A stretch of 64,000 nucleotides of DNA from Alphaproteobacteria bacterium MarineAlpha3_Bin2 (GTDB taxonomy: Bacteria > Pseudomonadota > Alphaproteobacteria > Rhodospirillales > Casp-alpha2), in the NCBI GenBank assembly GCA_002938315.1, contig PTLL01000002.1, forward strand, positions 1 through 64,000, read 5' to 3'. Within the stretch, counting starts at the first letter, position 1. Every line of letters begins with the position of its first letter. This document shows positions 17,991 through 24,697 of this stretch, piece by piece. The notes under the pieces were generated by a model. That model was not told where the DNA came from. It did not search any database and saw only the letters and a list, made by a program, of their open reading frames with translations. Both the position numbers and the translations under genes were made by a program.

Positions 17991-19010
17991 CTAATAAACC
18001 ATTTTGCTTTCCTCGTCGCCGGTGGAGATGATGATCTCACCGGCATCGGCCAGGTTCTTGGCGACGCCGACGATGGCAGACTGGGCCTCGTCGACGTCCT
18101 TGAGGCGAACCGCGCCCATGTCTTCCATGTCTTCCCTCATCATCTTGCCGGCGCGCTCCGACATGTTGGAGAAGAACAGATCCTTGACGTCCTCGGCGGC
18201 GCCCTTGAGCCCGATCGCCAACTGGTCTTTTTCGACCTGGCGCAACAACACCTGAATGCCGGCGGCATCCAGGCGGACCAGGTCGTCGAAGGTGAACATC
18301 AACGCGCGGATACGCTCGGCGCTTTCGCGGTTGCGTTCCTCCAGCGCCGTGATGAAGCGGCTTTCCGTGTTGCGGTCCAGGTTATTGAAGATGTCGGCCA
18401 TGTGCTCGTGGCTGTCTTGCCGCGCGGCGCTCGCCAGGCTGGTCATGAACTCGGTCCGAAGCGTGCGCTCGACATGATCCAGGATGTCCTTTTGCACCGG
18501 CTCCATGCGCAGCATCCGCATGATCACTTCCAGCGAGAAGTTCTCCGGCAATACGCTCAACACCCGCGACGCGTGGTCGGTCTTGATCTTGGACAGCACC
18601 ACGGCGACCGTCTGCGGGTATTCGTTGCGCAGGTAATTGGCCAGCACCGATTCGTTGACGTTGCCTAGCTTGTCCCACATGGTGCGGCCCGCGGGGCCGC
18701 GCATTTCTTCCATGGTCGAGGACACCCGCTCCTCGTCCAGGGCCGCGTTGAGCAATCGTTCCGTCGATGAATAGGACCCGACCAGGCCGCCGGCGGAAGA
18801 CAGTTGATCGGCGAATTCAACAAACAATCGCTCGACGATGTTCGACAACATCGCGCCCAGCCCCGACATCGCCTGGCTGAGCTTGCGGATTTCCTCGTCG
18901 TCCATGCGCTCGAACAACGTCCCCGATTGCTCAGAGCTGATCAACAGCATGAAAATCGCTGCCTTCTGCGGCCCCGAAAGAGCCCGGAAATCGTCTTTCA
19001 TGCGTGCCAT
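17991..19010 (-). CDS. fliG: Flagellar motor switch protein FliG
   Basis: A 339-residue rotor protein of normal length. The N-terminal domain opens [20 protein letters not shown]; the middle domain contains [22 protein letters not shown]; the C-terminal torque-generating domain includes [20 protein letters not shown] and [21 protein letters not shown]. FliG joins FliF of the MS ring to the FliM/FliN ring and contacts the stator. The frame is intact, but fliF just upstream survives only as a C-terminal stump, so there is no MS ring to bind unless another fliF exists. Confidence 0.95.
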
Positions 19011-19025: not shown

Positions 19026-19361
19026 TTAACCTTCCTGATACATCCAAGAGCGGATGATGGAGAGTGCTTCTTCCGGATGTTTCTCGACGATTTCGCCGAC
19101 CTTCTTCACCGACGATGCCTTCACCCGGCCTTCGACCCGATCGATGTCGATCAGCTCCTCGAATTGTTCCTCTTCGACGCCGGCATCGGCCGAGACTCCC
19201 GGCGCCGTTAATGCGGCCGCTGCGGCGGCCGCTTGTTCGGAAAGCATGCGTTCGCCAGCGGCGGCAGGAATGCTCTCAAATGCCCGGGAGACCAGCGGGC
19301 GGACAACCAACAGGATGACCAGGATGGCGACGATGCTAGGGCCGGGATCGTGAAGAAGAGG
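19026..19361 (-). pseudogene. fliF remnant (C-terminal ~105 codons)
   Basis: The frame opens after a TAA at 19362-19364 with no start codon and encodes GPSIVAILVILLVVRPLVSR, the second transmembrane helix of FliF. An Ala-rich linker and the FliG-binding C-terminus (IDRVEGRVKASSVKKVGEIV then HPEEALSIIRSWMYQEG) follow. FliF has about 550 residues; its periplasmic ring domains and first helix are missing. Upstream sequence to sciP (19362-19463) shows no FliF similarity. A GTG at 19308 could start a 94-residue peptide, but it would not make an MS ring. It lies 15 bases before fliG, the normal order. Confidence 0.9.
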
Positions 19362-20030: not shown

Positions 20031-20243
20031 TTGTTTCAATATGGCGACGACCTTTTGAACCGTCTTGACGACCTTAGACTGGCTATTTTGGACGGCGTAC
20101 TTTCCAAGGATAAGCTGACGGAACTCGCTCATAACCTGCGCCAAAAACGCCAAAACAGCGACGATCCCAAACTCAACGAAATTATTAATGAAATCGAACT
20201 CCGGGCTGAAGTCGAGGTCGCAAAATTAACCCGCGATCTTTGA
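20031..20243 (+). pseudogene. fliX remnant (C-terminal ~70 codons)
   Basis: The encoded peptide has GDDLLNRLDDLRLAILDG, KLTELAHNLRQKR and LNEIINEIELRAEVEVAKL, the conserved C-terminus of FliX, a class II flagellar assembly regulator that works with FlbD. FliX is normally about 140 residues; the N-terminal half is missing and the only possible start is a TTG without a clear ribosome-binding site. In relatives fliX lies between dksA and flgI; dksA is present downstream and flgI is gone. A short translated product cannot be excluded. Confidence 0.75.
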
Positions 20244-20418: not shown

Positions 20419-20835
20419 ATGAACGTTACCTTATCCCCTGACTACAAACCCAGGGTCAAAGAAAAATTTATGAATGCTCGGATGCTCGAGTACTTTCGCC
20501 TAAAGCTTTTGAGCTGGAAGACCGATCTCCTGAGTGAATCGAGCAGCACCCTTCAGCACCTTCAAGAGGGCGGCAGCGTTGAATCGGACATCGCTGACAG
20601 GGCATCGGTCGAGACAGACCGCTCCTTAGAGTTGAGGACTCGTGATCGTGCCCGCAAGCTCATTACCAAAATCGATGAGGCTCTCGAGCGTATTGATAAA
20701 GGTAGCTACGGATATTGTACGGAGACCAACGAGCCGATCAGCCTGTCCCGGCTTGAGGCCAGGCCCATTGCAACGCTATCAATCGAGGCTCAGGAACGGC
20801 ACGAGTGGATGGAAAAAACCCACCGCGACGAGTAA
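20419..20835 (+). CDS. dksA: DksA/TraR-family RNA polymerase-binding protein
   Basis: A 138-residue protein with the alphaproteobacterial DksA layout: LSPDYKPRVKEKFMN, a coiled coil (FRLKLLSWKTDLLSESSSTL to SLELRTRDRARKL), then IDKGSYGYCTETNEPISLSR and LEARPIATLSIEAQERHE. Like its close relatives it keeps only one of the four zinc-finger cysteines (about residue 98), so it probably does not bind zinc. DksA-type proteins bind the RNA polymerase secondary channel and modulate the stringent response. Its position among flagellar genes is usual for alphaproteobacteria. The frame is intact. Confidence 0.9.
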   Translation: MNVTLSPDYKPRVKEKFMNARMLEYFRLKLLSWKTDLLSESSSTLQHLQEGGSVESDIADRASVETDRSLELRTRDRARKLITKIDEALERIDKGSYGYCTETNEPISLSRLEARPIATLSIEAQERHEWMEKTHRDE

Positions 20836-20938: not shown

Positions 20939-21121
20939 CTAGAACGGGAAAATGATGTCCCAGATTTCCGTGCCCCAGCGGGGTTTCTGAAGCTGGCTCA
21001 GCGTACCCGAGCCGCCGTAGGCAACGCGCATTTCGGCAATGCTGTCGTCCGTATTCGACACGACCCCCACATTTTGTTGCTAAGCGAGCATTCCCGTCGC
21101 AGCGATGTCTAACGATCTCAT
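20939..21121 (-). pseudogene. flgG-flgH deletion chimera with internal TAG
   Basis: The frame starts ATG with an AGGA site and encodes MRSLDIAATGMLA, the invariant start of FlgG. A TAG follows where FlgG has Gln, then QQNVGVVSN still resembles FlgG (QQ-x-NVEVISN). It runs in frame into [20 protein letters not shown] and [14 protein letters not shown], the exact C-terminus of the L-ring protein FlgH. The bodies of flgG (about 260 codons), flgA and most of flgH are gone. The 61-codon remnant lies 67 bases after flgF, where flgG belongs. The FlgG and FlgH calls both rest on strongly conserved end motifs. Confidence 0.88.
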
Positions 21122-21188: not shown

Positions 21189-21944
21189 TTATGCCTGAGT
21201 CCCCATTTCCTTGATCATGGCCCGCATTCTTTCGTCTTCGCGAGTCATGAAGGTTCTGATGCCGTCGTATTTGCGGTTGATTTCGATCATCTTCGCCATT
21301 TCAAAAATCGGCTTAATATTGGAGCCTTCGAGCGTGCCCTGCATGATTTGAGACACTTTTCCGTTATCGGCATCCCCATCGTTCTCTTTGGGTTTTTCTT
21401 CGGAGGAAAACAGCCCGCCCGGGGAATGCGCAAGTATTTGGAGATTGTCAAAACGGACCAGCTTGATCTTGCCGAGTTCACCATTGTTGGTGGAGATGGT
21501 TCCGTCCCTTGAGATAACGATCTCGGTATCTTCGGGGCTGAAAAAGAATGGTGAGTTGCCGCTGGACATAACGGGGTTTCCTTGTTGGGTAACCAGCTGT
21601 CCGTCAGTATCCAATTTGAACCTACCGTTACGGGTGTAGCGGTCTCCATTATCCGTCTGGACGACGAAAAAACCGTCACCGGCAATCGATAAATCAAGGG
21701 GGTTTCCGGTTCTTTCAACCGGACCTTCGCTATGGTCCGTCACCGTTGCTATATCGCGGACATAGGCCAGTTTTACGCCCGAAAGTGTTCCACCACCGGG
21801 GCTTTTTACCAAATGTTGGACGAACATAATCCCTTCGCCTTTGAACCCGTTGGTGTTCATGTTGGCGATTTTGTTGGCGACGATGTCCATTTGTCGTTGC
21901 AACCCGCTTTGGCGGGAGAGAGCAATTGATGATGTAGTTTCCAT
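21189..21944 (-). CDS. flgF: Flagellar basal-body rod protein FlgF
   Basis: A 251-residue proximal rod protein. The start METTSSIALSRQSGLQRQMD is chosen over an in-frame ATG 39 bases upstream because rod proteins begin at this conserved helix. The N-terminal rod motif ANKIANMNTNGFKGE, the central GNPLDLSIAGDGFFVVQT and the C-terminal MIEINRKYDGIRTFM are all present, so the protein looks complete. It is normally secreted and polymerised through the export gate. A sigma-54-type promoter lies just upstream. Downstream flgG, flgA and flgH have collapsed into the chimera. Confidence 0.93.
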   Translation of the reverse strand: METTSSIALSRQSGLQRQMDIVANKIANMNTNGFKGEGIMFVQHLVKSPGGGTLSGVKLAYVRDIATVTDHSEGPVERTGNPLDLSIAGDGFFVVQTDNGDRYTRNGRFKLDTDGQLVTQQGNPVMSSGNSPFFFSPEDTEIVISRDGTISTNNGELGKIKLVRFDNLQILAHSPGGLFSSEEKPKENDGDADNGKVSQIMQGTLEGSNIKPIFEMAKMIEINRKYDGIRTFMTREDERMRAMIKEMGTQA

Positions 21945-22246: not shown

Positions 22247-22375
22247 CTGAAACCAGAGTGGGATATCGGGGATTGATCAGATGTCCGTTCTCAAGAAGTT
22301 GTTAACCAACTCCAGCTTATATTTCCCGGTGGTATCATCCGATGAATGTATCTTGTCGGTATTTGGGTTTTGGAA

Positions 22376-22930
22376 ATGGCTGACGAAGAAGAACTTGAAG
22401 AAGAGGGTGAAGAAGACGAGGACCTCGAGGGCGAAGACGGTGAAGATGATGATAAACCCGGCAGTTCGAAAAAGGTTCTCATCATCGTCGGCGTTGTCCT
22501 GTTGCTGGCTGTCGGAGGGTTCGCCGCGGCTTATTTCACCGGGCTTATCGATCCGGTCATTGCCTGGATCACCGGTGCCGAGGAAAAAGAACAAGAGGAG
22601 GGCCAAGAAGGGGTCCGTTCCGTTGACGCAGTCTTCTTCCCCCTGGAGGAGGTTATCGTCAACCTCAACACAGGAGGCAGAAAATCGTCCTTCTTGAAAA
22701 TACGGATCAGTTTGGAACTCGAGAATTCAGGCGACATCAAAAGGGTAGAAACCGTTATGCCCCGTATCATGGATAATTTTCAGGCCTATCTCAGGGAATT
22801 GAGAATTGAGGACTTAAAGGGTGCTGCGGGGATGTACAGGTTACGCGAAGAACTACTGTCACGGGTCAATACCGCTGTCGCACCCGTTAAGGTCCACGAT
22901 GTTTTATTTAAGGAAATGCTTGTCCAATAG
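22376..22930 (+). CDS. fliL: Flagellar basal-body protein FliL
   Basis: A 184-residue single-pass membrane protein. An acidic cytoplasmic N-terminus (DEEELEEEGEEDEDLEGED) is followed by a membrane helix (about residues 34-56, VLIIVGVVLLLAVGGFAAAY). The periplasmic stomatin-like FliL domain has VFFPLEEVIVNLN, LKIRISLELEN and a C-terminus ending LFKEMLVQ, the usual termination. FliL stabilises the stator-rotor interface. The start at 22376 (MADEEE) agrees with relatives, though an upstream ATG at 22346 exists and neither has a strong ribosome-binding site. It is intact. Confidence 0.9.
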   Translation: MADEEELEEEGEEDEDLEGEDGEDDDKPGSSKKVLIIVGVVLLLAVGGFAAAYFTGLIDPVIAWITGAEEKEQEEGQEGVRSVDAVFFPLEEVIVNLNTGGRKSSFLKIRISLELENSGDIKRVETVMPRIMDNFQAYLRELRIEDLKGAAGMYRLREELLSRVNTAVAPVKVHDVLFKEMLVQ

Positions 22931-22960: not shown

Positions 22961-24097
22961 ATGACCAGTCCCGCCGATGACGATGTAGATCAAGATGCCA
23001 TGGCCGCCGAATGGGAGGCCGCTGCCGGCGACGGCGACGAGCAGGACGACCTTGCCGCCGAATGGGAATCCATGGTTGGGGATGAGGGTGAAGACGGTGA
23101 AGGCGATGTCATCGAAGAAGGCGGTCGTGAATCGACGCGAGTCCTCAATCAGGAAGAGATCGACAGCTTACTCGGGTTCGACGAGGAGCACGATGATTCC
23201 GGGGACAAGTCCGGAATCCAGGCGATTTTATCCAGCTCCTTGGTTTCCTACGAACGCCTGCCGATGCTGGAGGTTGTCTTTGACCGATTAGTCCGTTTGA
23301 TGTCCACATCGCTCAGGAATTTCACCTCTGACAACGTTGAGGTTTCATTGGACAATATCGCCTCGATCCGGTTCGGTGATTATCTGAATTCGATCCCGTT
23401 GCCGGCGATGTTGAGTGTTTTCAAGGCCGAGGAATGGGATAATTTTGGTCTTGTCACCGTTGATTCATCCCTGATTTATTCAATTGTCGATGTCCTTTTG
23501 GGCGGTCGGCGCGGCACCGCGGCCGTGCGGGTCGAGGGTCGTCCCTATACGACCATCGAACGCAGCCTGGTTGAACGCATGGTGCATGTCATGCTCGGCG
23601 ATCTCAGCGCCGCATTCGAGCCGCTAAGCTCGGTTACCTTTCGTTTTGACCGGTTGGAAACAAATCCCCGGTTTGCGACCATATCCAGGCCCTCTAACGC
23701 CGCCATCGTCACCAGGCTGAGGATTGACATGGAAGACCGCGGCGGCCGTTTGGAACTATTGCTGCCCTACGCGACGTTGGAGCCGGTTCGTGAATTGCTG
23801 CTGCAGATGTTCATGGGCGAGAAATTTGGTCGTGATTCCATATGGGAAACTCATTTGGCGGAAGAATTATGGATGATCGAAGTCGATCTCGAAGCCGTCG
23901 TTGATCAGCAAATCATGCGCTTGAGTGAAGTTTTCGACCTCAAGATCGGCTCCAGGATCATGTTCACCGCCACCCCAGACTCCTTGATCTCACTTCATTG
24001 CGGCGGTGTCCCAATGTATACCGGGAAGATGGGACGCAAAGGCAATCAGATTTCCATCAAGATTGAAGAAAGAATCGAAAAGAAAGCCCGGACATAA
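22961..24097 (+). CDS. fliM: Flagellar motor switch protein FliM
   Basis: A 378-residue C-ring protein. A long acidic N-terminal extension (about 60 residues) precedes the CheY-P-binding motif LNQEEIDSLLGF. The CheC-like middle domain follows (LEVVFDRLVRLMSTSLRNFT to TLEPVRELLLQMFMGE), then the FliN-like SpoA domain (LSEVFDLKIGSRIMF to GNQISIKIEERI). All domains are present. The acidic N-terminal extension is longer than in E. coli FliM. It lies 30 bases after fliL and is the last complete gene of this flagellar unit. Confidence 0.94.
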   Translation: MTSPADDDVDQDAMAAEWEAAAGDGDEQDDLAAEWESMVGDEGEDGEGDVIEEGGRESTRVLNQEEIDSLLGFDEEHDDSGDKSGIQAILSSSLVSYERLPMLEVVFDRLVRLMSTSLRNFTSDNVEVSLDNIASIRFGDYLNSIPLPAMLSVFKAEEWDNFGLVTVDSSLIYSIVDVLLGGRRGTAAVRVEGRPYTTIERSLVERMVHVMLGDLSAAFEPLSSVTFRFDRLETNPRFATISRPSNAAIVTRLRIDMEDRGGRLELLLPYATLEPVRELLLQMFMGEKFGRDSIWETHLAEELWMIEVDLEAVVDQQIMRLSEVFDLKIGSRIMFTATPDSLISLHCGGVPMYTGKMGRKGNQISIKIEERIEKKART

Positions 24098-24185: not shown

Positions 24186-24308
24186 GTGCCCTATTCGTTG
24201 ATCCTCGATCTATTCGTCGCGGTTCTCTTGGTCGTAACTATCGGCTTTGCGGTCGTGCTTAATAAACGCTTGGGGAATTTACGCGGGGATAAGGCGGCCC
24301 TCATGTAA
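24186..24308 (+). pseudogene. Truncated DUF6468 flagellar-locus gene
   Basis: A GTG start with a good AAGGAG site five bases upstream begins MPYSLILDLFVAVLLVVTIG and continues FAVVLNKRLGNLRGDKAALM before TAA. This is the N-terminal membrane helix and start of the coiled region of the DUF6468 proteins that usually follow fliM in alphaproteobacteria. Relatives have well over 100 residues; this one stops after 40. The stop falls at the joint with flhB sequence, so the truncation results from a deletion. Confidence 0.75.
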
Positions 24309-24697
24309 AGGCCCGAATTAGAAAAGTGCGGATGGAACGCGCCCAGCAACGGATGATGGCTGCGGTTCCCGAGGCCGATGTGGTGATCACCAACCCGACC
24401 CATTATTCCATTGCCCTGCAATACAAGATTGATGATATGTCAGCGCCAATACTGGTTGCCAAGGGGGTCGATCACCTGGCGATGCGGATCAGGGAAGTCG
24501 CCAAGGCCAATGACGTGCCGCTGGTCGAAAACCCGCCCCTGGCCCGCGCGCTTTAGGCCGGGGTTGATGTTGACGAAGAAATCCCGCCCGAACACTTCAA
24601 GGCGGTGGCCGAGGTCATCGGCTTTATAATGCGTAAGCGGGGCGACCTGCCGGCCCAAGCTAGCCCTTCTGCCGAAGGCAATCCATCGGTACAATAA
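24308..24697 (+). pseudogene. flhB remnant (C-terminal ~130 codons with internal TAG)
   Basis: From the joint the sequence reads KARIRKVRMERAQQRMMAAV, then ADVVITNPTHYSIALQY with the NPTH autocleavage site of the export-switch protein FlhB. GVDHLAMRIREVAKANDVPL and ENPPLARAL follow. A TAG at 24554-24556 replaces the usual Tyr codon, then AGVDVDEEIPPEHFKAVAEV continues in frame to TAA. The four transmembrane helices of FlhB are missing. A fragment from ATG 24326 to the TAG could be translated but would not be a membrane protein. It precedes cckA by 41 bases. Confidence 0.92.

Follow-up and report, generated by a model that had tools for sequence, protein, structure and literature searches.

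The window, the 64,000-nucleotide stretch analysed here, is contig C36 of a 2.27-Mb draft genome (G000; 123 contigs, 97% complete) of an uncultured alphaproteobacterium, for which the named records closest in FliM are, for the most part, metagenome-assembled genomes of Rhodospirillales. On its minus strand, a 183-base scar joins the beginning of flgG to the end of flgH, close to flgF and a dksA-like gene, as follows:

20939..21121, minus strand: flgG::flgH deletion chimera, a pseudogene; 60 codons plus a stop if read through
21052..21121, minus strand: first 70 bases of flgG, retained; 84.6% identity to G004:C158:12393-12539, including the upstream spacer
21051..21052, minus strand: deletion joint, between two bases; 2,424 bp missing relative to G004
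20939..21051, minus strand: last 113 bases of flgH, retained, with its own TAG stop; 89.6% identity to G004:C158 from 14964; Pfam FlgH match, E 2.6e-5
21080..21082, minus strand: codon 14, an in-frame TAG; G004 has CAG here and the other flgG compared have Gln
21189..21944, minus strand: flgF, intact frame; TIGR02490 above cut-off; dN/dS 0.11-0.16 against congeners
20419..20835, plus strand: gene that flanks flgH in relatives and that we take, from its family features, to be dksA-like; 94% amino-acid identity to G004

The two halves and their parent genes

The FlgG and FlgH identities of the two halves are based on DNA alignment to G004, the closest congener compared, which is about 90% identical to the window at the DNA level in the adjoining sequence. 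G004 carries the last codons of flgF, flgG, flgA, flgH and the dksA-like gene in a single run, with flgG-flgA-flgH intact, and its FlgG and FlgH both score above the curated family cut-offs. The alignment breaks cleanly at 21052|21051. Window positions 21200-21052, in which a conserved spacer precedes the flgG part, match the first G004 block, and the sequence from 21051 onward matches G004:C158:14964-15614; the 2,424 bp between the blocks, which the window has lost, begin at base 71 of flgG, include flgA in full and end at base 649 of flgH. The missing stretch measures 2,400, 2,400, 2,403, 2,435 and 2,452 bp in five other congeners, and six congeners hold the intact parent genes at this site, between the same two sequence blocks. 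The preliminary description, made from the letters of the window alone, had read a FlgG start, a TAG and then a FlgH end at 20939-21121 and had called the whole a deletion chimera locatable almost to the base. Alignment to G004 bore out each of these points, and the coordinates were exact. It had also named the right genes as removed (flgG, flgA and flgH), although its figure of 1.5-2 kb was too low, congener alignment giving about 2.4 kb. An intact small gene of the same sequence, which by that description would argue against a chimera, was found in none of the relatives examined.

The Pfam FlgH match within the chimera spans 20945-21046 and profile positions 139-172 of 172. At 24.5 bits it lies below the PF02107 curated cut-off of 27 and covers only the last 34 of 172 positions, so that the fragment does not count as a FlgH protein. 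Of the 41 genomes searched, 33 have a FlgH that passes the Pfam cut-off, whereas the same search of the window's genome, within the limits that draft completeness and contamination set on every absence drawn here from family searches, returned nothing besides this fragment.

Reading frame and sequence at the joint

Translation from the ATG at 21121-21119 on the minus strand runs through 23 codons and one base of flgG; the joint falls inside codon 24, and the flgH part continues in the same frame to its TAG stop at 20941-20939. The frame is disabled by the TAG that replaces the CAG of G004 at codon 14. The preliminary description had reasoned that the joint keeps the frame and that the TAG may accordingly be a later mutation. 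The frame is indeed kept, but a roughly one-in-three outcome of this kind carries no information, and we rejected it as evidence: the deletion length modulo 3 differs among relatives, being 0 in four congeners and 1 and 2 in two others. It is possible that the TAG arose after the deletion. Because Gln14 is conserved in the flgG sequences compared, a functional flgG could scarcely have borne a TAG there; the stop either arose after the gene had been inactivated or was itself the cause. We also considered a recoded TAG and rejected it, since the stop of flgH itself is TAG in both the chimera and G004, and since the internal ambers of two remnants in the window replace different residues: Gln in flgG and, in a flhB remnant described below, what we take from the FlhB consensus RALYAGV to be Tyr.

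Beyond the stop, the flgG part carries two residue changes, R16Q and E19G (GGG in the chimera for GAG in G004), the second at a glutamate conserved in nearly all relatives; both changes fit a loss of constraint. The two residue differences in the FlgH part, Q to K and Q to E, also occur in intact relatives. Compared with G004, the chimera has a dN of about 0.04 and a dS of about 0.2; this ratio looks constrained, and the fossil thus shows little decay of its own.

At the joint, with G004 standing in as a relative for the true parents, the sequence is GTGTCGAATA|ACC in the left parent, CCGTCG|CGGACG in the right parent and GTGTCGAATA|CGGACG in the window. Identity in register is zero on both sides, and the short shared repeat proposed earlier as a sign of slippage was therefore not found in this comparison (0 bp against G004). 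Within 12 bases of the breakpoints no match is longer than 4 bases, the length most often obtained with random pairs drawn from this region, and GTCG and AATA near the joint were dismissed as candidate microhomology at chance level. One variant of the deletion explanation would nevertheless give AATA a part: a first deletion via the AATA common to flgG (TCG AATA ACC) and flgH (GAC AATA CC GTC GCG) would have been followed by the loss of 6 bp. AATAC does occur in G004 flgH six bases upstream of the joint, where the window reads AATACGGACG. We regard this two-step origin as unlikely, as it requires two events, the length of flgH in the joint region is identical in every relative, and a longest match of four bases is what random pairs most often give. 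The same constancy of length led us to reject an ancestral flgH length difference as the origin of AATACGG.

Lesions of the flagellar locus in the window and in sister species

The chimera lies among other flagellar genes and remnants:

22346..22930, plus strand: fliL, intact frame
22961..24097, plus strand: fliM, intact frame; TIGR01397 above cut-off
24186..24296, plus strand: start of the gene after fliM, cut by a second deletion; DUF6468 in the relative G003
24291..24296, plus strand: second deletion joint; AAGGCG (G005) or GGCG (G004) common to both parents
24293..24694, plus strand: flhB 3' remnant, FlhB residues about 241-373; in-frame TAG at 24554-24556
20031..20243, plus strand: fliX remnant, reduced to the C-terminal half; matches Pfam FliX at positions 71-134 of 135
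17991..19010, minus strand: fliG, intact frame; TIGR00207 above cut-off
19026..19340, minus strand: fliF-like C-terminal remnant; matches the final ~105 residues of a 567-residue frame beside fliG in G006 at 91% identity

The fliF-like name is our presumption from position; a Pfam search of the fragment gave no match. At the second scar, 3.2 kb from the chimera, the DUF6468 gene breaks off about 37 codons in and runs on into flhB at about codon 241, with about 12 kb missing relative to G003. Unlike the flgG|flgH joint, this one has 4-6 shared bases; by simple arithmetic, at least 4 would be shared at about 1.6% of random joints and at least 6 at about 0.1%. Family searches of the window's genome found no FlhA, FlgI, flagellin or MotA, and the FliG, FliM, FliN, FliL and FlgF frames are open. 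The dN/dS values of fliM, fliN, fliG, fliL and flgF are similar to the ratios between flagellated relatives. Dating the loss by dN/dS was abandoned, as such ratios in retained genes cannot separate recent loss from continued use. Elsewhere in the genome, a short rod-type (Flg_bb_rod) frame on the minus strand (G000:C66:4189-4275) is broken by a TAA and is possibly another remnant.

Two sister species bear deletions of the same locus that differ from those of the window. In G004, flgG-flgA-flgH is still present, as is the end of the locus that carries flhB; an independent joint (G004:C158, L056 about 12393) fuses sequence lying upstream of fliE to the final codons of flgF. The gene names on the fliE side of that joint are those we presume from position. 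At this G004 locus flgF, fliL and fliM are missing, and FliM was not found in the G004 genome. G008 (G008:C50:18000-26799, L062) keeps fliM near the dksA-like gene and has lost flgF, flgG, flgA and flgH; it gave no rod-protein match, and its alignment to the window skips flgF through flgH. The pieces lost from the window and from G004 are complementary, which places the deletions after the split of these two species.

Origin and meaning of the chimera

We put at about 95% the probability that one deletion, about 2.4 kb long, left this 183-bp in-frame dead-gene chimera as one of several independent lesions in a decaying flagellar locus. This event would have removed the flgA gene together with flgG sequence from base 71 onward and flgH sequence as far as base 649; at some point CAG would have become TAG at Gln14, so that translation from the flgG start could yield no more than 13 residues. 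The zero overlap with G004 suggests rejoining without microhomology, by end joining or a similar process. The deletion is probably recent, because most of the divergence in the remnant predates it.

The deletion would be a real chromosomal one and not an error of assembly. In a 123-contig draft, distant fragments might be misjoined and the intact genes be absent, and a random misjoin would also give a joint without microhomology. The two halves, however, are the outermost ends of one flgG-flgA-flgH run, in the correct order and orientation and correctly spaced from flgF and dksA; the joined sequence has a TAG and E19G of its own; and in an assembly that is 97% complete, FlhA, FlgI, flagellin and MotA are absent as well. 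An assembly artefact is thus very improbable. It is hardly credible that the 183 bases are a functional small gene merely resembling flgG and flgH: although the frame is open past codon 14 and the flgH stop is kept, codon 14 is TAG, the relatives examined contain no such gene, and the junction 21-mer was absent from a collection of 84,980 species, from which records of the window's own genome may be left out. Our literature search found no report of such a flgG|flgH joint, a weak result given that few papers matched.

As the product of a single deletion, the chimera is a clean but ordinary dead-gene remnant of a well-known kind. Similar to the decaying flagellar loci described previously (PMC12199754; ISME J 2025), the locus retains a partial, non-functional set of flagellar genes. 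What sets it apart is a joint known to the exact base, together with different deletions of the same locus in two sister species. That broad survey considered the event-by-event order and mechanism of motility loss to be beyond its reach (PMC12199754). The Lysobacter genus has likewise shed core flagellar genes, fliG and fliM among them (PMC9927559); there, however, fliG, motA and flagellin are lost and an export system is said to remain functional, whereas here fliG is kept and flhA is lost. The chimera is thus a base-exact marker in a genus that is repeatedly losing different pieces of one flagellar locus, and joints of this kind let motility loss be traced event by event, in both its order and its mechanism. 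It also carries a warning for annotation: the 46-residue FlgH-like frame found here is not a gene.

Retained FliG and a FlgG paralogue

A more tentative reading, which we think rather doubtful, is that independent deletions dismantled the flagellum in sister species, which held on to FliG and a stand-alone FlgG paralogue for a role unconnected with the flagellum; on this view the chimera would be one step of a partial retirement and not of simple decay.

FlhA and FlgI were not found in the G004 and G009 drafts. Intact fliG genes are present in G004:C155 (L169:9320-10351) and G009:C43 (L167:833-1864), encoding proteins 90% and 81% identical, respectively, to the FliG of the window; neither gene has neighbours matching the flagellar genes of the window, and that of G004 lies close to a contig end. 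In the window's genome, an intact stand-alone FlgG paralogue (G000:C13:38135-38911; L071:8136-8912) scores above the FlgG equivalog cut-off and shares 60% identity with the cluster FlgG of G004. Its neighbours (DUF58, BatA/DUF4159 and an MFS transporter) are conserved. Much of the family has the paralogue, and the species with eroded flagella, G000, G004 and G009, keep it too, with a dN/dS of 0.10-0.22.
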